Assembly (NCBI RefSeq): GCF_008040165.1
Contig: NZ_VRUR01000002.1
Location: forward strand, 1,488,001-1,552,000
Direction: 5' to 3'
Source of the DNA: Flagellimonas hymeniacidonis
Lineage (GTDB): Bacteria > Bacteroidota > Bacteroidia > Flavobacteriales > Flavobacteriaceae
Length of the DNA: 64,000 bases
Every line of letters begins with the position of its first letter. The first letter of the stretch is position 1. The notes beneath the pieces were generated by a model. The model saw nothing but the letters and a program-made list of their open reading frames with translations, was not told the DNA's origin and made no database searches. A program made the position numbers and the translations under genes. Positions 7,456-54,509 of this stretch are shown here, piece after piece.

Positions 7456-7868
7456 TTTCTCGCTCTATTTCTTTTGTCCAATCCAAAGTTTATTTTATAC
7501 CAAACTCGTTCATGAAAATAATATAAAAACATCTTAGTTAGAACTTCAGCCAATCCAACTTTTAAACCAATAATTGGATTCCCAGATATAAACCAGGACA
7601 GAAGCATTGTGTCAATAGTTCCTATGAATCTCCAAGTAATGGATTTAATTAAGTGCCTTCGATGGCTACTTGTTATATTTATTCTAAGCCAAACTCTTTC
7701 ATGCACATAATATAAAATCATTTTAGTAACCATCTCCGAAAACCCAATTTTAAGACCTATGAGGGGGTTTCCAGAAATCAACCATGATAAGAGGAACGTA
7801 TCTATCGTGCCAACTACTCTCCAAGTCACAGTTTTAGCAATATGTCTTTTGTAAGATACTTTTCTCAT
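7419..7868 (-). CDS. tandem DUF2061 membrane protein
   Basis: 149 residues formed by two copies of one DUF2061 unit, at about 12-60 and 75-123. The copies match at about 34 of 48 positions by eye. Each contains TWR..GTIDT.LLSW.ISGNP and ends in HERVW, with a short hydrophobic helix. DUF2061 proteins are small membrane proteins of unknown role, often found beside sulfate-activation genes. The start codon overlaps the cysQ stop by one base (TAATG), and the end overlaps cysC by 37 nt, which indicates tight translational coupling. Function unknown. Confidence 0.85.
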   Translation of the reverse strand: MRKVSYKRHIAKTVTWRVVGTIDTFLLSWLISGNPLIGLKIGFSEMVTKMILYYVHERVWLRINITSSHRRHLIKSITWRFIGTIDTMLLSWFISGNPIIGLKVGLAEVLTKMFLYYFHERVWYKINFGLDKRNRARKWKKILPSTDTK

Positions 7869-8674
7869 TATCTTCTGACAATAAAGTGACTATTTAATAG
7901 ATTTTCTTTGTTGTACAATAAAGGTTCGCCTGTTTCTTTTGAAATTACTTTTATTCCTACTGCGTTACAGATAGCTTGTCCTGCTGCTGTATCCCATTCC
8001 ATGGTAGGTGCAAATCTAGGGTACACATCTGCCTTACCCTCTGCAACCAGACAAAACTTTAGAGAACTACCTTTAGAAACTATTTCAACATTACTATAAG
8101 TAGTGCTAAGTTTGGTTACGAATTCTTCAGTCTCTTTGTTCATGTGAGACCTACTACCAACAATTTTAATGGTATTTTCAATTCTTTTTCTAGGAGTTAT
8201 CTCATTTGTTTTTGACATCATTTGACCACTAAATTCATGATTTACATCCAGGGTTACTTTATATGCCTTCGCTTCTTCAGAGTCCGAAAAGAAAAGCTCC
8301 TTGGTTACTGGGACATAAATCACACCCAGGATTGGCGTATTATTTGAAACCAAAGCAATATTCACAGTAAATTCACCATTTCTTTTGATAAATTCTTTTG
8401 TACCATCTAGAGGGTCCACTACCCAACATGTTTCCCATTTACCTCTAGCATCATAGCTAAGGTTTTTATTTTCCTCGCTGATTATAGGAATATTTGTTCG
8501 TTGCAAAAACTTAAGTATTTCTGTATTTGATGCTATATCAGCTTTAGTAATTGGTGAATTATCCAGTTTTTGATTGAAAACAATCTCATCATCTTCCTCA
8601 TATATTTTTAGAATAGCTTTTCCAGCTCTTATTGATGCTTTTATAGCAACATCCAAAAGATATGTTTTATCCAT
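7868..8674 (-). CDS. cysQ: 3'(2'),5'-bisphosphate nucleotidase
   Basis: 268 residues of the inositol-monophosphatase superfamily. It has ISEEN (65-69), DPLDGTKEF (87-95) and EWDTAAGQAI, the three metal-binding motifs, and the KEF extension is typical of CysQ. It hydrolyses PAP, the by-product of PAPS use by sulfotransferases or PAPS reductase, to AMP. It is first in the run that continues into DUF2061, cysC, cysD and cysN, so PAPS making and PAP clearing are coupled. Confidence 0.93.
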   Translation of the reverse strand: MDKTYLLDVAIKASIRAGKAILKIYEEDDEIVFNQKLDNSPITKADIASNTEILKFLQRTNIPIISEENKNLSYDARGKWETCWVVDPLDGTKEFIKRNGEFTVNIALVSNNTPILGVIYVPVTKELFFSDSEEAKAYKVTLDVNHEFSGQMMSKTNEITPRKRIENTIKIVGSRSHMNKETEEFVTKLSTTYSNVEIVSKGSSLKFCLVAEGKADVYPRFAPTMEWDTAAGQAICNAVGIKVISKETGEPLLYNKENLLNSHFIVRR

Positions 8675-46055: not shown

Positions 46056-46121
46056 AAAAGACATTCTTATCCTTATTCTGACAATTATCATATTTTGCGC
46101 ATAACCCCTGAATTACTTTTG
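46056..46121 (+). promoter_or_regulatory. shared regulatory element and promoter, copy A
   Basis: The element starts with AAAAGACATTCTTATCCTT (46056-46074). A Crp/Fnr-type dyad TGACAATTATCA follows (46079-46090), then a -7 box TACTTTTG (46114-46121). The dyad and the box are 23 nt apart, exactly as in copy B near 50.1 kb, and the first 46 nt match copy B at 39 positions. The dyad centre lies about 40 nt upstream of the predicted transcription start, the place of a class II activator. No TTTG -33 box is needed or seen. Confidence 0.65.
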
Positions 46122-46125
46122 GATT

Positions 46126-46503
46126 GTGAAAAAAATCGCAATCATATTATTCTCGATTTCAATTTTGGGAAAACCCCTATACCCTATTGCAGAGTATATC
46201 ACAAACTATGACTATATCGTGAACAACCTATGCGAGAATAAAAACAAACCAGCATTAAATTGCGATGGAAAATGCTACCTCTCCAAACTATTGGCACAAG
46301 AGTCCAAGCAAAGTGAAGAAAATCCGTTCGGAGAAAAACAATCCCAAACCGAAGTACAACATATTTTCTTCTACAAATTAACTTCTCAAATTGATTTTGG
46401 GGAGGATTTATCACAAGCATCAAAAGACAATTTCGAAATTGTTTCCTTATTGATTTCAACTCCATTTATTTCAGAGATTTCTGAACCGCCAGAAGCATCC
46501 TAA
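46126..46503 (+). CDS. small exported Cys-motif protein, first of the copper set
   Basis: 125 residues. A signal-peptide-like start (MKKIAIILFSISIL) leads into LCENKNKPALNCDGKCYLSKLL, with C36, C46 and C50 (C-x9-C-x3-C). Small Bacteroidota proteins with this CxGKC motif often sit before TonB receptors for metals, but have no assigned role; metal binding is inferred. The start is GTG and lies only 4 nt after the -7 box, so the message may be leaderless. It is 96 nt upstream of the copper receptor gene and shares its likely promoter. Confidence 0.7.
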   Translation: MKKIAIILFSISILGKPLYPIAEYITNYDYIVNNLCENKNKPALNCDGKCYLSKLLAQESKQSEENPFGEKQSQTEVQHIFFYKLTSQIDFGEDLSQASKDNFEIVSLLISTPFISEISEPPEAS

Positions 46504-46599
46504 TTCAGCTTTTTGTACTTGCTTTTTTATTCGGATGGTTTTCTCATCCAAAGAAAGCATGTACCCTTCATCTTTTGAATTAGTCTAAAATACAATCTT

Positions 46600-48669
46600 A
46601 TGAAAACCGAATATAGCATTGGGCTTCACCATTCTATTATAGGTGCGATAAAAGGCAAAAAAATAGTTTTTGCAGTCCTGTTGTCCATAATATTTCATTG
46701 GCAAAGTGCTGCCCAAGAACCAAAAGTAGTTTTAGTGACAGATTCTATATTGCCTGTGCACTTAGAGGAGGTAATTGTAATTTCCTCTTACAACAAAGCA
46801 TTGGAACATAAGTCACATCACAAACCCTTATCCACTTTAGATGAGTATCTAGAATCCTCAAAAAAAGTGAACATGATTAAAAGAGGTGCATACGCGTGGG
46901 AACCGGTCCTCAATGATATGAGTTCAGAGCGCCTATCCGTAACCATTGACGGCATGCGTGTTTTTGGTGCATGTACGGATAAAATGGATCCAATAACTTC
47001 TTATGTTGATGTTTCTAATCTCTCCGATGTTCATGTGGCATCTGGTCAACAGGGTGCAGAACAAGGAGCAACTATAGGGGGTGCTATTGATTTAAGATTG
47101 GAGAAAAGTAATTTTATTCCCAAAGGATGGGTGGGTTCTGTTGAGACTGGTGGTGAAACCAATAACGAAGCTCAAATTATAGGTGGCGAACTGAATTACT
47201 CCGACGAAGCATTTTATATTGACACCGATATTATTTATAGAAAGGCCGAAAACTATACGGCAGGTGGTGGTGAAGAGGTTGCATTCTCTCAATTTGAAAA
47301 ATACAATATATCCGCTAATGCAGGCTACAAAGTTTCAGATGATCAGCAACTATTGGCCAGTTTCATCTATGATGAAGCTAGGGATGTGGGCTACCCCGCC
47401 CTACCTATGGACGTCTCATTGGCAAGAGCATTTATTGGTTCCATAAGCTGGAAACAGTCCAACTTTATAGGTGATTTAAAAAACTGGGAAACCAAGCTAT
47501 ACGCAAATTCCATAACACATATTATGGATGATAGCCAAAGACCAGATGTGCCCATACGAATGGATATGCCTGGATGAAGTGATACCTACGGCTACTACTC
47601 TCAAACAGAACTTACACTGAACCGCCATAAGTTTTTACTAAAGTTGGATGGTTTCTACAATCGCTCCTTGGCCGAAATGACCATGTATCCCAACAATCCA
47701 AATGAGCAGGAAATGTTCATGCTAACTTGGCCAGATGTACGTACCGTAAATTCAGGTTTTTACGCTGAAGACGAAATCAGTCTCAAAGAAAGTTCCTTAA
47801 AACTTTCAACAAGATTGGCGATACAGGGTTTCAATGTGGCAGATGAATTTGGGCTCAACAGTCTTAGAATTTTTTATCCCGAAATGAATCAAAGACAGAC
47901 TCGCTTTCTAAAAAGTGTTTCCGCAGCTTATCATAGAAAATTCAAAACATTCCATATAAACGGTGGACTATCCTATGGTGATCGTGCACCTTCTGTTTCG
48001 GAAGGTTTTGGGTTTTATCTGTTCAATAGTTTTGACAACCATGATTATATAGGTGACCCCGATTTAAAAAATGAAAAGGCCATTGAAACCAATGTCAAAG
48101 TATCATTGCCCCTTAAAAAAATAAATATAGGCCTTGAGGCTAATTACTTTCATACTATGGATTTTATCATCGGAGAGGTAAATCCAGATTTGAGTGTTAT
48201 GACCATTGGTGCTGAAGGGGTCAAAGTCTATAAGAATTTGGAATATGCCGATCTATACAACATTTCTTTGGACACCAAATATGAGATTACCCCAGAACTC
48301 CTTTGGACAGGATTAATATCCTACCATAGAGGAACAGATCAGGATGGTCAAAATCTGCCTTTTATAAGTCCAATAGCCTATAATTCAATGGTGCAATATA
48401 CCTCTGGAACTTTTTCAGGTTCACTTACGATGCGCGGAGCTGCAGATCAAGTAAACTTCAATCCAGTTTTTGGAGAAGACCTTAGTAATGCTTACACCGT
48501 TTTTTCAATGGCATTGGGTAAATCGTTCCCTGTAAACAATGATACTGTTTATGTAAAAGCAGGAGTGGAAAATATTTTTGACGAATTCTATTCCACATAT
48601 ACAGATTGGAACAATATACCGCGTATGGGCCGTAATTTTTTTATGACCATTTCTTATGCAATCAATTAA
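46600..48669 (+). pseudogene. OprC/NosA-like TonB-dependent copper receptor, interrupted by in-frame TGA
   Basis: One frame of 690 codons, full length for the family, broken only by TGA at 47575-47577 (codon 326). The N-terminal half has a signal sequence (about 20-38), a plug with LEEVIVISSYN and TIDGMRVFGACTDKMDP, and GQQGAEQGATIGGAIDL. The C-terminal half continues the barrel and ends in a terminal Phe-rich strand (RNFFMTISYAIN). C125-x3-M129 and H307-x-M309 match the CxxxM and HxM copper ligands described for Pseudomonas OprC. Both lie before the stop. It may be a true nonsense mutation, a sequencing error, or a readthrough. It would import copper for NosZ. Confidence 0.8.
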
Positions 48670-48703
48670 AATCAAAAACAATAATCATACTATAAACAAC
48701 ATA

Positions 48704-49561
48704 ATGAAAACAATTAAAATCTTATTTACCGCACTTATATTATCAATGACCCTTTTCTCTTGTTCAGATAATGATAATGATGACCCCATTCCAATATCCG
48801 AAAATCCGCTAGAGGATTATAATATGTTGACCAGCTTTAAAGCCAACAATCATAGTGTAGAAATTTATTCTGAACAACAACAGTTTTCGGTAGGTTATAA
48901 CGAGCTATTCTTCAGGATTAAGGACAAGGTTTCTGATAGCTATATCAGCAATGCAGATGTTTCTTGGATGCCCATGATGCATATGACCGAGATGACCCAT
49001 TCCTGTCCAAAATCTTCAGTTTCAACAATCGAAGATAAGTCAGTTTATACTGGTTATGTGGTATTTCAAATGGCTGGAAATGCAAATGAATATTGGGAAC
49101 TTACCCTGGAATATACCGTTGAAGGGCAAACGTACAATGCAACAGAACGCATAGAAGTTAATGCCCCTACAGATGGTAAAAAGACAGTAAACGTATTTAT
49201 GGGAAGCGATGATACTAGGTATGTCTTGGCTATGATGCCCATAATACCGGAAGTTGCGGTCAATGACTTTTCAGCTCAGCTCTTTAAAATGGAAAACATG
49301 ATGTCATTCCCGGTTGTAAAAAATTACAAAGTACATATTGATCCAAGAATGCCTGGCATGGGTAACCATAGCTCACCAAACAATGAAAACCTCATTTTTG
49401 ACACATCTTCAGATACTTACATGGGAAAATTATCCTTAACCATGACGGGCTATTGGAAAATAAATCTAAAATTGGAAAATGAAGTTGGTGAGGTTTTAAA
49501 GGGAGAAGACATCACAGAGGAAAATGAAAGTAGTAGCCTATTTTTTGAGTTAGAGTTCTAA
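48704..49561 (+). CDS. Met/His-rich lipoprotein, YtkA/FixH-like, probable copper binder
   Basis: 285 residues from the ATG at 48704; the frame opens at 48656 inside the receptor gene, but only this start gives a lipoprotein signal (LFSC, C20). Two similar beta domains follow. The first carries WMPMMHMTEMTHSCP at 88-102, the second PRMPGMGNH at 214-222. Such Met/His clusters bind Cu(I) in periplasmic carriers. It lies 34 nt after the copper receptor and before a terminator, so it closes the copper set. The domain name rests on general resemblance only. Confidence 0.75.
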   Translation: MKTIKILFTALILSMTLFSCSDNDNDDPIPISENPLEDYNMLTSFKANNHSVEIYSEQQQFSVGYNELFFRIKDKVSDSYISNADVSWMPMMHMTEMTHSCPKSSVSTIEDKSVYTGYVVFQMAGNANEYWELTLEYTVEGQTYNATERIEVNAPTDGKKTVNVFMGSDDTRYVLAMMPIIPEVAVNDFSAQLFKMENMMSFPVVKNYKVHIDPRMPGMGNHSSPNNENLIFDTSSDTYMGKLSLTMTGYWKINLKLENEVGEVLKGEDITEENESSSLFFELEF

Positions 49562-49592
49562 ACTATAATTCCGTTTTATTGTTTGTTTAAAA

Positions 49593-49620
49593 GGCCATCC
49601 AAAAAAAGGATGGTCTTTTT
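49593..49620 (+). terminator. rho-independent terminator after the copper set
   Basis: An 8-bp stem GGCCATCC/GGATGGTC with one G-T pair, a 7-A loop and five T. It ends the plus-strand copper set. The opposite strand shows the same stem, with a loop-derived run of T but few T after it, and could also help end the convergent Rrf2 gene. Confidence 0.8.
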
Positions 49621-49631
49621 ATATGAGAAAA

Positions 49632-50063
49632 TTAAAGCGGTAGAAAAGACTTTCCCGCCTTAATATCCTTTACCAAATCTCCAACCGTATTTTCTTCTAA
49701 ATTCTTTACAAAATTTACTTTAGTGTTGCCCACAAGGTCATGCATTGGGCATGGGTGTTCTGCATCACATTCCTGCAAACTAAGCATGCAAGAAGTGAGT
49801 CTATTGTCACCATCCATCACTTGAATAATCTTCATCAAAGGTGTTTTAATATTTTCTTTTGAAAGATAAAACCCCCCTCCCGGTCCCCTAACCGAAGAGA
49901 CTATATTATGTCTTGACAATTCCTGCAAAACTTTGGACAGATACGCTTTTGGAATATTCGTAGGTGTACTGATATCCTTTGCTAAAATTTTATGGTCTTC
50001 GGAAGAATTCACAGCAAGATATAGGACTGCCTTAACTGCATATTTAGAGGAGTTAGATATCAT
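49632..50063 (-). CDS. Rrf2 family iron-sulfur regulator (NsrR/IscR-like)
   Basis: 143 residues from the ATG at 50063; a longer frame starts with TTG at 50072 but adds only three residues. The winged helix has NSSKYAVKAVLYLA, LAKDISTPTNIPKAYLSKVLQEL and VRGPGGGFYLSK. C92, C99 and C105 (C-x6-C-x5-C) sit where IscR and NsrR hold their Fe-S cluster. Beside a nos cluster, a nitric-oxide or iron-sulfur-status sensor is likely. Its own -7 box TATATTTG lies on the minus strand at 50082-50089, and the shared AAAAGACAT element covers the -33 zone, which suggests autorepression. Confidence 0.88.
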   Translation of the reverse strand: MISNSSKYAVKAVLYLAVNSSEDHKILAKDISTPTNIPKAYLSKVLQELSRHNIVSSVRGPGGGFYLSKENIKTPLMKIIQVMDGDNRLTSCMLSLQECDAEHPCPMHDLVGNTKVNFVKNLEENTVGDLVKDIKAGKSFLPL

Positions 50064-50081
50064 GATGAACAAGTTTTAAAA

Positions 50082-50089
50082 CAAATATA
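50082..50089 (-). promoter_or_regulatory. candidate -7 box of the Rrf2 gene
   Basis: TATATTTG on the minus strand fits TAnnTTTG and lies 18 nt before the Rrf2 ATG. There is no TTTG at -33; that zone is occupied by the first half of the shared element. Confidence 0.5.
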
Positions 50090-50095
50090 AAGATT

Positions 50096-50161
50096 AAAAG
50101 ACATTTTTATCCTTTATATGACAATTATCATGTTTTATGCAATGACTCCATCCTAATTTTG
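50096..50161 (+). promoter_or_regulatory. shared regulatory element and promoter, copy B
   Basis: AAAAGACATTTTTATCCTT (50096-50114), the dyad TGACAATTATCA (50119-50130) and the -7 box TAATTTTG (50154-50161), with the same spacings as copy A. It drives the cytochrome c-fasciclin-nosZ set; transcription should begin near 50166, 20 nt before the ATG. Its left half lies between the divergent Rrf2 promoter and this one, so it could serve both. Confidence 0.7.
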
Positions 50162-50185: not shown

Positions 50186-50692
50186 ATGAAAATCAATATC
50201 GTATTATCAGCATTAATGTTTTCCGTACTGCTCGTAGGATGTGGTGGTAAAGAAGAAAAAAAGACAGATGGTTTTAGTGTGGATCGCAAAAAATCAACCG
50301 AAAAACCGGTAGAAACTCCAGCGGCTGATAATGAAGTTCCAGCTTCACAGAGGATTACACTAGATGAAAAAGGGGTAGGACAAATAAAATCCATTACGCT
50401 TGATCCTGAAATTGATATGGAAATGGCAGCTGCTGGAGAAGCTATATACAATACCAACTGTACCGCTTGTCACAAATTGGACAAAAGGTTCATTGGTCCA
50501 TCCCCAAGAGGAATTATGGAAAGAAGAAGCCCGGAGTGGATTATGAACATGATTCTTGATCCCAAACTGATGACTGAACAAGATCGTTGCGCTAAAGATT
50601 TATTGATTGAATTTAATGGAGCTGCAATGGCCAATCAGAATTTAACCGTGGAGGAAACCCGCGCTATCCTAGAATATTTTAGAACATTATAA
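50186..50692 (+). CDS. cytochrome c lipoprotein
   Basis: 168 residues. A lipoprotein signal ends LLVGC (C19). A charged linker (about 21-75) precedes one class I cytochrome c domain with CTACH at 92-96 and a likely axial methionine at M148 (GAAMANQ). It is the first gene of the set with nosZ and would pass electrons to NosZ from the outer face of the inner membrane. No nosR or nosC-type gene is visible, so this protein is the best donor candidate in the window. Confidence 0.9.
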   Translation: MKINIVLSALMFSVLLVGCGGKEEKKTDGFSVDRKKSTEKPVETPAADNEVPASQRITLDEKGVGQIKSITLDPEIDMEMAAAGEAIYNTNCTACHKLDKRFIGPSPRGIMERRSPEWIMNMILDPKLMTEQDRCAKDLLIEFNGAAMANQNLTVEETRAILEYFRTL

Positions 50693-50704: not shown

Positions 50705-51289
50705 ATGAAAACAGCCAATCTAAAATTTGTATTCGGCGCCGTTTTAGCACTATTAATGACTTTCGGATGTAAAAACGAGCCCAAAACTGATAATTCTACT
50801 GTATCCAATACCACAATAAATGATACAGAAGCTAACAAAGAAAAAGGTCAAGCCTTTATTGAAGACGATGGGTCAACACCCAATGTATTGCAAATAGCAA
50901 TTGGTTCACCTGACCACACTACTCTTGTAGCCGCTGTGCAAGCCGCAAACCTGGAAAATGCACTTGTAAATGCTGGACCACTTATGGTTTTTGCCCCAAC
51001 CAATGCTGCCTTTGATGCTTTGCCAGAAGGTACAGTTGAAAATTTGTTGAAACCAGAAAACAAAGATGCTTTGGCCAATATCCTTAAACATCATGTTACC
51101 GCAGGTAACTACTCTAAGGATTTTCTTAAAAGGTTTAAAAAATTAGGCCAGGCCAATGATCAGAATACCACTGTAGAAGTAAAAGGTGAAGATGTATATG
51201 TAGGAGGTGCCAAGATTATAGCCAGTGTCCCCGCAGGAAATGGCATTGTACATGTTGTGGACAAAGTGATTCTTCCACCTTCAGAGTAA
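50705..51289 (+). CDS. fasciclin (FAS1) domain lipoprotein
   Basis: 194 residues. A lipoprotein signal ends MTFGC (C22), a linker follows, and one FAS1 domain covers about 58-192 (APTNAAFDALPEGTVENLL, LKHHVTAGNYS, VHVVDKVILPP). FAS1 domains act in adhesion or scaffolding and have no known role in N2O reduction. It is 12 nt after the cytochrome gene and 40 nt before nosZ, clearly in the same transcript, so a role in assembling or holding the periplasmic complex is possible. Confidence 0.88.
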   Translation: MKTANLKFVFGAVLALLMTFGCKNEPKTDNSTVSNTTINDTEANKEKGQAFIEDDGSTPNVLQIAIGSPDHTTLVAAVQAANLENALVNAGPLMVFAPTNAAFDALPEGTVENLLKPENKDALANILKHHVTAGNYSKDFLKRFKKLGQANDQNTTVEVKGEDVYVGGAKIIASVPAGNGIVHVVDKVILPPSE

Positions 51290-51329: not shown

Positions 51330-53291
51330 ATGAAAAAGTATAAACATTATGTATTCGCACTTCTTGGAGTGAGTCTATTGCTCGCAGGGTGTGGAAATCA
51401 AACTGGTAAAAGCTCCTCAAATGGCGCGCTATCTTCCAGTGCGGCAGAAAAAGTATATGTAGCTCCGGGAGAACAAGATGAATATTACGCATTCCTATCA
51501 GGTGGTTATAGTGGAAACCTAACCGTGTATGGTCTACCTTCAGGTAGAATGTTCAAGGAAATTCCTGTTTTTTCGCAATTCCCAACCTCAGGGTACGGAT
51601 ATTCCGAAGAAACCAAACCTATGTTAAATACTTCCTTTGGATTTGTGCCATGGGATGATGCCCACCACCCTGATATCTCTCAGACCAACGGAGAACTGGA
51701 CGGTAGATGGATTTTTATCAATGGTAACAATACCCCAAGAATTGCACGGATTAGCCTTAGCACCTTCGAAACTGAAGAAATTATAGAGGTTCCCAATAGT
51801 GCAGGTAACCATAGTTCTTCATTTATTACGGAAAACACAGAATATGTTGTTGCGGGAACACGTTTCTCAGTACCCGTTCCACAACGTGATATGCCCATAA
51901 ATGAATACAAAGGAAACTTTAAAGGTGCCTTGTCATTTATCAGTGTTGCTCCGGACAATGGAAGATTGAATCTTGAATTTCAGGTATTGATGCCAGGATT
52001 TAACTATGACCTTTCGCACCCTGGTAGAGGAAAATCGCATGGATGGTTCTTCTTCACCACATATAATACTGAAGAAGCCAATTCTTTAATGGAGGTGAAT
52101 TCCTCGCAAAACGATAAAGATTTTATTGCTGCGATCAATTGGAAGAAGATAGAAGAGTATGTAAAAAATGGAGGGGGTACCAAAATGCCTGCCAATTATG
52201 CACACAACGTTTATGATGAGCATACCCATACCGGTACTTCTACCATGAAAAAAGAAGTGTTGACCGTAGACCCAACCGAAGTTCCTGGTGCAGTTTTCTT
52301 TTTACCAACACCGAAATCACCACATGGTTGTGATGTAGACCCAACGGGGCAATATATTATCGGAAATGGAAAACTATCCGCAGACCTTACAGTACATTCA
52401 TTTGATAAAATGATAGCAGCAATTGAAGGTGAGAAATTTGACGGAGAAGCGTATGGCATTCCTATCCTTAAGTTTGAAGATGTTTTGGCTGGAACGGTAA
52501 AAAGTGGTGGATTAGGCCCACTACACACCGAATTTGATGCAAACGGAAATGCTTACACCACTTTCTTTATCTCATCAGAAGTGGTAAAATGGAAATTGGG
52601 CACATGGGAGGTTATTGACCGTAAACCTACATTCTATTCCGTAGGGCACTTAATGATTCCTGGTGGAAATTCAAGAAAACCATTTGGCAAGTATGTAGTG
52701 GCCATGAATAAAATTACCAAAGACCGTTACTTGCCTACCGGACCAGAGATGGAACACTCAGCTCAGATTTATGATATTTCTGGTGAAAAAATGGAATTAA
52801 TCTATGATTTTCCAACACATGGTGAGCCGCATTATGCTGCCGGTTGTCCCGCAGAATTATTGGCGCCCAAATCCAAGAAAATCTATAGATTGTCGGAAAA
52901 CAAACATGAATTTGCGACTATTAGTCCAAATGATGCCCGTGTAGAGCGCAATGGCAAAGAGGTCCATATTTATATGTCTACCATTCGTAGTCACTTTACT
53001 CCAGATAATATTGAAGGTATAAAAGTGGGTGATAAGGTATATTTCCATATCACCAATCACGAACAAGATTTTGATGTGCCTCATGGCTTCTCGATCATAG
53101 GACAAAATACATCAGAACTATTGGTTATGCCGGGCCAAACCAAAACCTCTATTTGGGAACCTAAGCAAGTTGGTGTATGGCCATTTTATTGTACGGATTT
53201 CTGTTCAGCGCTACACCAAGAAATGCAGGGGTATGTAAGAGTATCTCCAGCCAACTCTAATATTGAGCTCTCCTGGTCTTTGGGTGAATAA
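51330..53291 (+). CDS. nosZ: nitrous-oxide reductase, Sec-type (clade II)
   Basis: 653 residues. The signal is Sec-type with a lipobox (LLLAGC, C21), not a twin-arginine signal, so this is a clade II NosZ that is probably lipid-anchored. The seven-bladed propeller supplies CuZ histidines, for example H112-H113 (DDAHHPD), H161 (GNHSS), AHNVYDEHTH, SPHGCDVD, GPLHTEFD and GHLMIPGG. The C-terminal cupredoxin holds CuA: a histidine in DVPHGF and CTDFCSALHQEM with C621, C625, H629 and M632. It reduces N2O to N2 in the periplasm. All expected ligands appear present. Confidence 0.97.
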   Translation: MKKYKHYVFALLGVSLLLAGCGNQTGKSSSNGALSSSAAEKVYVAPGEQDEYYAFLSGGYSGNLTVYGLPSGRMFKEIPVFSQFPTSGYGYSEETKPMLNTSFGFVPWDDAHHPDISQTNGELDGRWIFINGNNTPRIARISLSTFETEEIIEVPNSAGNHSSSFITENTEYVVAGTRFSVPVPQRDMPINEYKGNFKGALSFISVAPDNGRLNLEFQVLMPGFNYDLSHPGRGKSHGWFFFTTYNTEEANSLMEVNSSQNDKDFIAAINWKKIEEYVKNGGGTKMPANYAHNVYDEHTHTGTSTMKKEVLTVDPTEVPGAVFFLPTPKSPHGCDVDPTGQYIIGNGKLSADLTVHSFDKMIAAIEGEKFDGEAYGIPILKFEDVLAGTVKSGGLGPLHTEFDANGNAYTTFFISSEVVKWKLGTWEVIDRKPTFYSVGHLMIPGGNSRKPFGKYVVAMNKITKDRYLPTGPEMEHSAQIYDISGEKMELIYDFPTHGEPHYAAGCPAELLAPKSKKIYRLSENKHEFATISPNDARVERNGKEVHIYMSTIRSHFTPDNIEGIKVGDKVYFHITNHEQDFDVPHGFSIIGQNTSELLVMPGQTKTSIWEPKQVGVWPFYCTDFCSALHQEMQGYVRVSPANSNIELSWSLGE

Positions 53292-54044: not shown

Positions 54045-54509
54045 ATGAAAGGTAAACATATCAATTTCGCTCTTATATTAATACTTCTAATAGCATCTTG
54101 TTCGATAACGCCAAAACCCATAAACTATGGTAGCGATGGATGTCATTTTTGTAGTATGACCATTGTGGACAAGCAACATGCCGCTCAATTTGTAACAGAA
54201 AAAGGCAAGGCTTTTAAGTTTGATGCTGCAGAGTGTATGATGAATCATTTAAAAGAAATTGATGTCGCAACCGTCTCGCTATTTTTGGTTAATGATTACC
54301 ATTCTCCAGGAGATTTGATTGATGCCACAAAGGCCACTTATCTTATTAGTAAAAATATTCCCAGTCCAATGGGTGAATACTTAACCGCTTTTGAATCCAA
54401 AGCAATAGCGGAAAAAGCTAGAGAACAACATGAAGGTAAGCTTTTTACTTGGACGGAATTAAGCAACCGGTTTGATGTTGGACAAGATGATAAAATTAGT
54501 CTAAAATGA
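54045..54509 (+). CDS. nosL: copper chaperone NosL lipoprotein
   Basis: 154 residues. A lipoprotein signal ends LIASC (C19). The Cu(I) site is CHFCSM at 33-38 (CxxCxM), and DAAECMMNHL matches the second conserved block. NosL delivers copper to apo-NosZ with the NosDFY complex. It starts 4 nt after the nosB-like gene and overlaps the next gene by 4 nt (ATGA). Confidence 0.93.
   Translation: MKGKHINFALILILLIASCSITPKPINYGSDGCHFCSMTIVDKQHAAQFVTEKGKAFKFDAAECMMNHLKEIDVATVSLFLVNDYHSPGDLIDATKATYLISKNIPSPMGEYLTAFESKAIAEKAREQHEGKLFTWTELSNRFDVGQDDKISLK

Follow-up and report, generated by a model that had tools for sequence, protein, structure and literature searches.

A 46-bp element that stands twice in a 64,000-nucleotide stretch of the genome of the marine bacterium Flagellimonas hymeniacidonis (contig NZ_VRUR01000002.1, positions 1,488,001 to 1,552,000; hereafter the window) is, on sequence evidence, a conserved regulatory module. 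One copy precedes a nos operon for the reduction of nitrous oxide (N2O) and the other a putative copper-uptake operon. Each copy resolves into two adjacent palindromes, IR1 and IR2, with a promoter box at fixed spacing, and the layout recurs in relatives in association with two classes of regulator. The element quite probably acts as a two-sensor promoter module, in which activation by FNR and control by an Rrf2-family regulator would allow low oxygen and nitric oxide (NO) to be read together.

Anatomy of the shared element

As stated in a preliminary description of the window, the copies at 46056-46101 and 50096-50141 are identical at 39 of 46 positions without gaps, and the pair was independently recovered as repeat family D4. 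Under an independent-sites model, about 1.1e-6 such pairs are expected by chance in 64 kb. Both copies also proved to be intergenic as described, with no open reading frame (ORF) of at least 80 amino acids over either. With up to 3 mismatches allowed, a 41-position pattern built from the two copies matched the whole genome (3,887,983 bases) at exactly two places and the backwards control at none. The many unrelated copies that would mark a dispersed repeat were therefore absent, and that explanation is ruled out. Among 60 genomes from the genus, 24 were matched when up to 3 mismatches were allowed, at 37 places in all, and 13 of these 24 had two matches.

The repeat of 46 bp was recovered as described, but the shared unit is longer, as a TAnnTTTG box lies at equal distance downstream of both copies. 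Comparison with relatives resolved the parts. IR1 (consensus AARGAYA-N4-TRTCYTT) lies upstream of IR2 (ATGAY-N4-RTCAT), with the centres 19 bp apart in both window promoters, and the Bacteroidota -7 box (TAnnTTTG) starts 29.5 bp past the IR2 centre in both. In the copper-operon promoter, all on the + strand, the proposed Rrf2 operator IR1 AAAGACATTCTTATCCTT (46057..46074, 0 mismatches to AARGAYANNNNTRTCYTT) is followed by the proposed FNR-type activator site IR2 CTGACAATTATCAT (46078..46091, 1 mismatch) and by the -7 box TACTTTTG (46114..46121). Downstream of this copy is a gene set encoding a small CxxxC protein, a TonB-dependent receptor, and a YtkA-like lipoprotein. The second copy sits between divergent genes, an Rrf2 regulator on the - strand and the cytochrome c-nosZ operon on the + strand. 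Here, IR1 AAAGACATTTTTATCCTT (50097..50114, +, 0 mismatches) is common to the nos and rrf2 promoters. IR2 ATGACAATTATCAT (50118..50131, +, 0 mismatches), the putative FNR-type site of the nos promoter, precedes the nos -7 box TAATTTTG (50154..50161, +), and the -7 box TATATTTG of the rrf2 promoter (50082..50089, -) lies 16.5 bp from the IR1 centre.

Bacteroidota promoters have a consensus and a distance from it to the start site; we take the start site to lie a few bases past the -7 box, which would place IR2 near -41.5 and IR1 near -60.5. Activators at about -41.5 occupy a class II position, and those at about -60.5 a class I position. A single long site for one protein was also considered and was ruled out because each palindrome is also found alone, IR1 at many rrf2 genes that have no IR2 and IR2 at 23 of the 30 FNR-type places read.

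Conservation of the promoter layout in relatives

Promoters were counted in 80 named NosZ loci and the window. Three loci (L020, L021, and L069) were left out, because the contig breaks off short of the promoter or no first gene was located, and 78 nos promoters were readable. IR2 was present at up to 1 mismatch in 76 of the 78, which come from related loci and are not independent events. Among these 76, TAnnTTTG stood at exactly 29.5 in 69, and the IR1 core was found at up to 1 mismatch in 73 (reversed-region control, 0/93). The distance between the IR1 and IR2 centres in the 73 promoters was 19 in 61, 20 in nine, 18 in two, and 29 in one. The 17 copper operons that adjoin nos behaved alike, with IR2 in 17, the box in 16, and IR1 in 16. 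Overall, 85 of 88 boxes downstream of IR2 fell at a spacing of 29.5. Among 71 promoters with less than 85% similarity, base conservation peaked in IR1, IR2, and the box and was low in the stretch that separates IR2 from the box. The preliminary description had looked to nos, nor, and copper genes of relatives for further copies, and nos promoters and copper operons indeed carry the sites; common control of copper uptake and N2O reduction is thus supported as a comparative inference.

A strict composite pattern was then matched in 49 of 397 family genomes, at 51 places in 44 of the 237 genera sampled (backwards control, 0), and the context was read for 35 of the 51 places. The 30 read first comprised 25 nos loci, a CxxxC-receptor operon in another genus (L232, the same as L272), a gene that is nadA-like by eye (L209), a place by ric (L206), and two of no assigned function (L214 and L221). 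Five further contexts were nos (L316 and L317), a place by an Rrf2 gene (L315), and two of no assigned function (L313 and L314); in L313, a NosY-like gene lies about 1.5 kb from the composite. Apart from the 17 copper operons beside nos, three CxxxC-receptor operons have both sites and the box: L266 and L273, which were not within the nos flanks retrieved from their genomes, and the above L272, from another genus. Most CxxxC-protein homologues with other partner genes did not carry the module.

Two side observations concern these operons. One related locus (L046) has no copper operon, but at 8259-8294, 3' of rrf2, it carries an orphan copy of the element, as though a deletion had removed the operon and spared its promoter. 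Furthermore, a second class of CxxxC operons (L284, L285, L287, L288, L292, and L293) carries GTGAY-N4-RTCAC followed by TAnnTTTG at the same 29.5, which suggests another CRP-family regulator; in L284, an exact IR1 core also lies 30 bp upstream of the centre of the GTGAY-type dyad, with the box at 29.5.

Candidate regulators and operon genes

To relate IR1 to Rrf2 regulators, Rrf2 genes were gathered from the loci by sequence pattern, and IR1 was sought within 150 bp at up to 1 mismatch. Three-cysteine Rrf2 genes without IR2 nearby carried IR1 in 30 of 33 cases (27 exact; reversed control 4/33, none exact), and ric was in the same locus for 22 of the 30. Among Rrf2 genes with IR2 nearby, 61 of 63 had IR1. 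No IR1 was found at any of 18 Rrf2 genes without the three-cysteine motif, which form one clade in a FastTree tree and which we take to be IscR-like by sequence. Because IR1 stands before 30/33 three-cysteine Rrf2 genes, many of them beside the NO-damage repair gene ric, versus 0/18 without the motif, it is most likely an NsrR-like operator of the Rrf2 gene of the window. At the ric-linked rrf2 genes, the -7 box is mostly 22.5-24.5 bp from the IR1 centre.

The Rrf2 gene itself (49632..50072, -) encodes a family member by profile (PF02082, E=2.3e-27; TIGR00738, 99.6 bits, cut-off 73.3) and probably starts at the ATG at 50061-50063. Its product, the proposed IR1-binding protein, contains CX6CX5C, three cysteines predicted to be placed to hold an iron-sulfur (Fe-S) cluster. 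It scored below the curated NsrR equivalog (NF008240, 41.7 bits versus a cut-off of 182), as did a ric-linked relative (L154, 37.9), and by eye IR1 differs from the NsrR motif gATGyAT-N5-ATrCATc.

Two Rrf2 genes were matched in the F. hymeniacidonis genome, the second being IscR-like by sequence. Four exact IR1 matches occur there, two in promoters and two inside ORFs, so that the intergenic ones are confined to the nos and copper promoters. A wide IR1 regulon was not found in this genome, which had 42 matches per strand at up to 1 mismatch (4 exact) versus 43 in the backwards control. Two cases of joint absence in other genomes fit the assignment: that of L044 has a three-cysteine Rrf2 gene without IR1 and a nos promoter without IR1, and that of L078, perhaps incomplete, has no Rrf2 match and again no IR1 at nos. 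Beyond nos, a similar pair of sites lies upstream of an Rrf2 gene in L156, between nadA/nadB-like genes and an adjoining COX1-family gene that is NOR-like by eye and had no NCBIfam match. The NadA-like gene of L209 carries the composite at a centre distance of 17; with L156, this raises the thought that synthesis of nicotinamide adenine dinucleotide may belong to the NO regulon.

IR2, with its last base left free, was found with the box at the exact spacing at 48 places in 7 genomes (backwards control, 0). The 30 contexts read included six nos promoters, one copper operon, and four fnr-like genes, in which the dyad ends in G, not T; IR1 was present at all 7 nos and copper places and at 0 of the other 23. 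The remaining contexts include hemN (L242), ompW, nirK, and an ATP-cone reductase, besides a place within an ORF and several for which no anaerobic role is apparent. The OmpW and ATP-cone identities were confirmed by profile, and the nirK place adjoins a TIGR02376 match. The HemN profile was run on a gene of the F. hymeniacidonis genome (L131) that has an IR2 match upstream and no exact box. Since the same box spacing precedes fnr, hemN, ompW, and nirK genes, IR2 is most likely an FNR-type anaerobic activator site, and before these genes and nos it falls at about -41.5 if start sites are placed from the box. As a separate observation, two Arenibacter nirK promoters (L294 and L295) carry IR2 and the box at 29.5 without IR1, and no IR2-box pair was found at three other nirK loci (L296-L298).

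The F. hymeniacidonis genome has four places with IR2 and the box, among them the promoter of a CRP/FNR gene near G000:C1:524671 (L160; G at the last dyad base), and the product of this gene is most likely the IR2-binding protein. It matches PF00027, PF13545, and PF00325 above their cut-offs, and its best NCBIfam profile is Fnr (NF008365), at 107.8 bits and below the cut-off of 228. The protein contains CENC near its N terminus, and FNR structures are among its best PDB matches; aligned with a solved FNR, the CxxC and a later cysteine coincide, and other cysteines exist.

The genes of the two operons, all on the + strand, were assigned as follows. The putative copper operon opens with the small CxxxC-motif protein (46126..46503), an ORF without a Pfam or NCBIfam match whose homologues adjoin nos in 16 of the 80 named loci. 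Its GTG start lies 4 nt past the -7 box (46114-46126), a distance that is near-constant in 15 of 17 copper promoters, so that the transcript is probably leaderless or the true start later. The copper-receptor-like TonB-dependent receptor (46600..48669) matches TIGR01778 on its N-terminal part (E=3e-20), and its two fragments score 72.5 and 32.9 bits, below the cut-off of 472.45 of this curated TonB-copper profile. The copper role of the operon is accordingly a suggestion, drawn from this weak match and the pairing with nos. The receptor gene is interrupted by an in-frame TGA at 47575-47577, a recent mutation or a sequencing error; the gene is contiguous in four of five relatives (L005, L006, L007, and L033), and the stretch is poorly bounded in the fifth (L031). 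The YtkA-like lipoprotein follows at 48704..49561 (PF13115, E=2.3e-9). The nos operon begins with a c-type cytochrome (50186..50692, PF00034) and a fasciclin-domain lipoprotein (50705..51289, PF02469), which are followed by a clade II (Sec-dependent) nitrous-oxide reductase, NosZ (51330..53291; TIGR04246, 929.6 bits, cut-off 625), and a NosL family protein (54045..54509, PF05573). Elsewhere in the window, 7489-7836 holds two copies of a 159-nt direct repeat, 70% alike and 189 bp apart from start to start.

Proposed mechanism and comparison with known systems

From the sites and their associations, we infer which protein would bind each palindrome, the signals read, and whether Rrf2 lowers or raises nos expression. 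An FNR-type activator at IR2, about 41.5 bp upstream of the predicted start in a class II position, would turn on the nosZ and copper operons at low oxygen. IR1, about 60.5 bp upstream of the same start, would be the operator of the adjacent Fe-S-type Rrf2 protein, NsrR-like in its targets, and, as IR1 also overlies the promoter of the regulator, would mediate autorepression. Rrf2 bound at IR1 most likely holds nos and copper uptake down by interfering with the neighboring FNR, and damage to its cluster by NO (or oxygen) would end the repression, with the outcome that low oxygen in the presence of nitrogen oxides would bring about joint production of NosZ and its copper supply. At many rrf2 genes, IR1 stands a short way upstream of the -7 box, and NsrR is described as a repressor in the consulted part of PMC1274295; both points favor repression or anti-activation.

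Several observations, besides the relatedness of the loci counted above, weigh against this two-sensor mechanism. A site at -60 is not a usual position for a repressor. The IR2 dyad alone is unspecific, with 6 of 11 matches in the F. hymeniacidonis genome inside ORFs, and L160 has no counterpart of the third N-terminal cysteine of FNR. By TIGR02376, nirK is missing from this genome, in which no search was made for nirS or nor. PMC8510549, a metatranscriptome study, predicts a CRP/FNR homologue of a Flavobacteriales metagenome-assembled genome to be MalR-like and, in the part consulted, reports no evidence of CRP/FNR-family control of denitrification in such organisms. Among the relatives, at three Arenibacter copper operons (L269, L270, and L271), an IR2-like site is accompanied by the box at 30.5 but not by IR1; the L016 copper promoter lacks IR1 and the box; and the nos promoters of L081 and L082 lack IR2, though the L082 genome has a three-cysteine Rrf2 gene with IR1. 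In L032, an adjacent Rrf2 is present and IR1 is found only at 2 mismatches. The nos promoter of L079 has IR1, but the three-cysteine Rrf2 gene of its genome (L198) does not. Finally, six Arenibacter loci keep IR1 at nos, and an adjacent rrf2 was not found there by tblastn; any three-cysteine Rrf2 with this operator may therefore suffice, or different lineages use different regulators. In one of these genomes (G307), there is a ric-type three-cysteine Rrf2 gene that has an IR1 itself.

Repression at nos has one serious rival. IscR can both activate and repress, and Rrf2 at IR1 might likewise join FNR in activating nos and copper uptake, bound at a class I position on the same DNA face, while repressing its own gene. 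We consider this rather unlikely. The centre of IR1 near -60.5 does fit a class I site, and the off-spacing cases with a box, whose centre distances fall outside 17-21, stand at 28 (nos, L222), 29 (nos, L077), 30 (L284), and 40 (L315), about 19 plus whole helical turns. These exceptions number only four, however; the IR1 of L315, beside which are an Rrf2 gene and a weak match to NorB, may act only on the divergent rrf2 promoter, and L284 is another CxxxC-receptor operon with the different, GTGAY-type dyad. Four off-spacing matches without a box (27, 27, 33, and 39) were set aside, the one at 39 having ric on the IR1 side. Moreover, IR1 before the ric-linked rrf2 genes stands at the place expected of a repressor, judged by the box distances given above.

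The identity of the IR2-binding protein admits a further alternative, in which a NO-sensing DNR-type relative replaces the oxygen-sensing FNR and the module reads NO twice. The F. hymeniacidonis genome has 6 PF13545 matches at E<=0.001, and PMC1274295, in the part consulted, describes similar sites across FNR-like regulators. Such a reader is improbable, as the places with IR2 and the box in this genome include the promoter of L160 and none of the other five PF13545 genes, the best NCBIfam profile of L160, albeit below its cut-off, is Fnr, and several other IR2 targets are general anaerobic genes. That IR1 is merely the autoregulatory operator of the divergent rrf2, with no role at nos, would accord with its place between the two in most nos loci. 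We regard this as very unlikely given that copper operons, which have no Rrf2 match upstream in the locus maps, also carry IR1 at an unchanged spacing, and that IR1 is kept before the Arenibacter nos genes described above. The two copies, 4 kb apart in one locus, could also be the remnant of a recent promoter duplication without selection; with the composite in 44 of 237 genera and conservation concentrated in the palindromes and the -7 box, a pattern that contradicts such an origin, this is exceedingly improbable.

A broader proposal is put forward tentatively and is itself more doubtful than probable. A so far undescribed Bacteroidota Rrf2 operator code (RGAYA-N4-TRTCY) may unite N2O reduction, copper import, NO reduction, and Fe-S repair in one NO regulon. 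At nos and copper operons, Rrf2 would work with FNR in helical register from class I positions, as a co-activator or a contact-dependent anti-activator of nosZ, while repressing its own gene and ric. If true, NosZ and its copper supply would strictly require low oxygen and NO at once, as in an AND gate.

Clade II N2O reducers include many Bacteroidota and form an important biological sink for N2O. The two-sensor mechanism predicts that copper import is turned on with NosZ and not by copper status alone. It offers two concrete candidate operators, two candidate regulators, and one spacing rule usable across genera, and the matching of copper supply to N2O reduction becomes directly testable in cultivable marine strains. 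In the literature surveyed, by titles and the starts of abstracts, no paper describing an operator for Rrf2 or a site for FNR at Bacteroidota nos was found. Within the scope of that survey, the operator, the spacing rule, and the link to copper operons in Flavobacteriia are apparently new; the presence of Rrf2 beside clade II nos has already been published (PMC6264515). The consulted part of that study describes nosZ switching as little known outside Proteobacteria and clade II nos scaffolds, many from Flavobacteriia, as enriched in Rrf2 regulators; it gives no binding site, targets, promoter architecture, or copper operon, which are proposed here.

The remaining comparisons likewise draw on the consulted parts of the cited studies. 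NosA and OprC are TonB-dependent copper receptors with the copper-binding motif CxxxM-HxM (PMC8610252). The operon described here also encodes a TonB-dependent, copper-receptor-like protein, but this one falls below the TonB-copper profile cut-off and is set with a CxxxC protein and a YtkA-like lipoprotein. In PMC1274295, DNR and NnrR control denitrification genes, and nosA belongs to a predicted Brucella NnrR regulon, so that there, too, a CRP/FNR-family regulator is predicted to connect denitrification with an outer-membrane copper receptor. The DNR motif is CTTGATnnnnATCAAG, whereas that found here is ATGAYNNNNRTCAT, and no Rrf2 operator at nosA is mentioned in that part of the study. The nearest precedent is the enterobacterial hcp-hcr promoter, which is predicted to be under FNR and NsrR, the latter also acting at ytfE, a ric gene (PMC1274295). 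As in the promoters of the window, a putative FNR-type site and the operator of a NO-responsive Rrf2-family protein are combined in one anaerobic promoter. At hcp-hcr, the NsrR motif gATGyAT-N5-ATrCATc lies downstream of the FNR site, whereas here AARGAYA-N4-TRTCYTT lies upstream, mostly at 19 bp, and the predicted targets are nosZ and copper uptake, in Bacteroidota.

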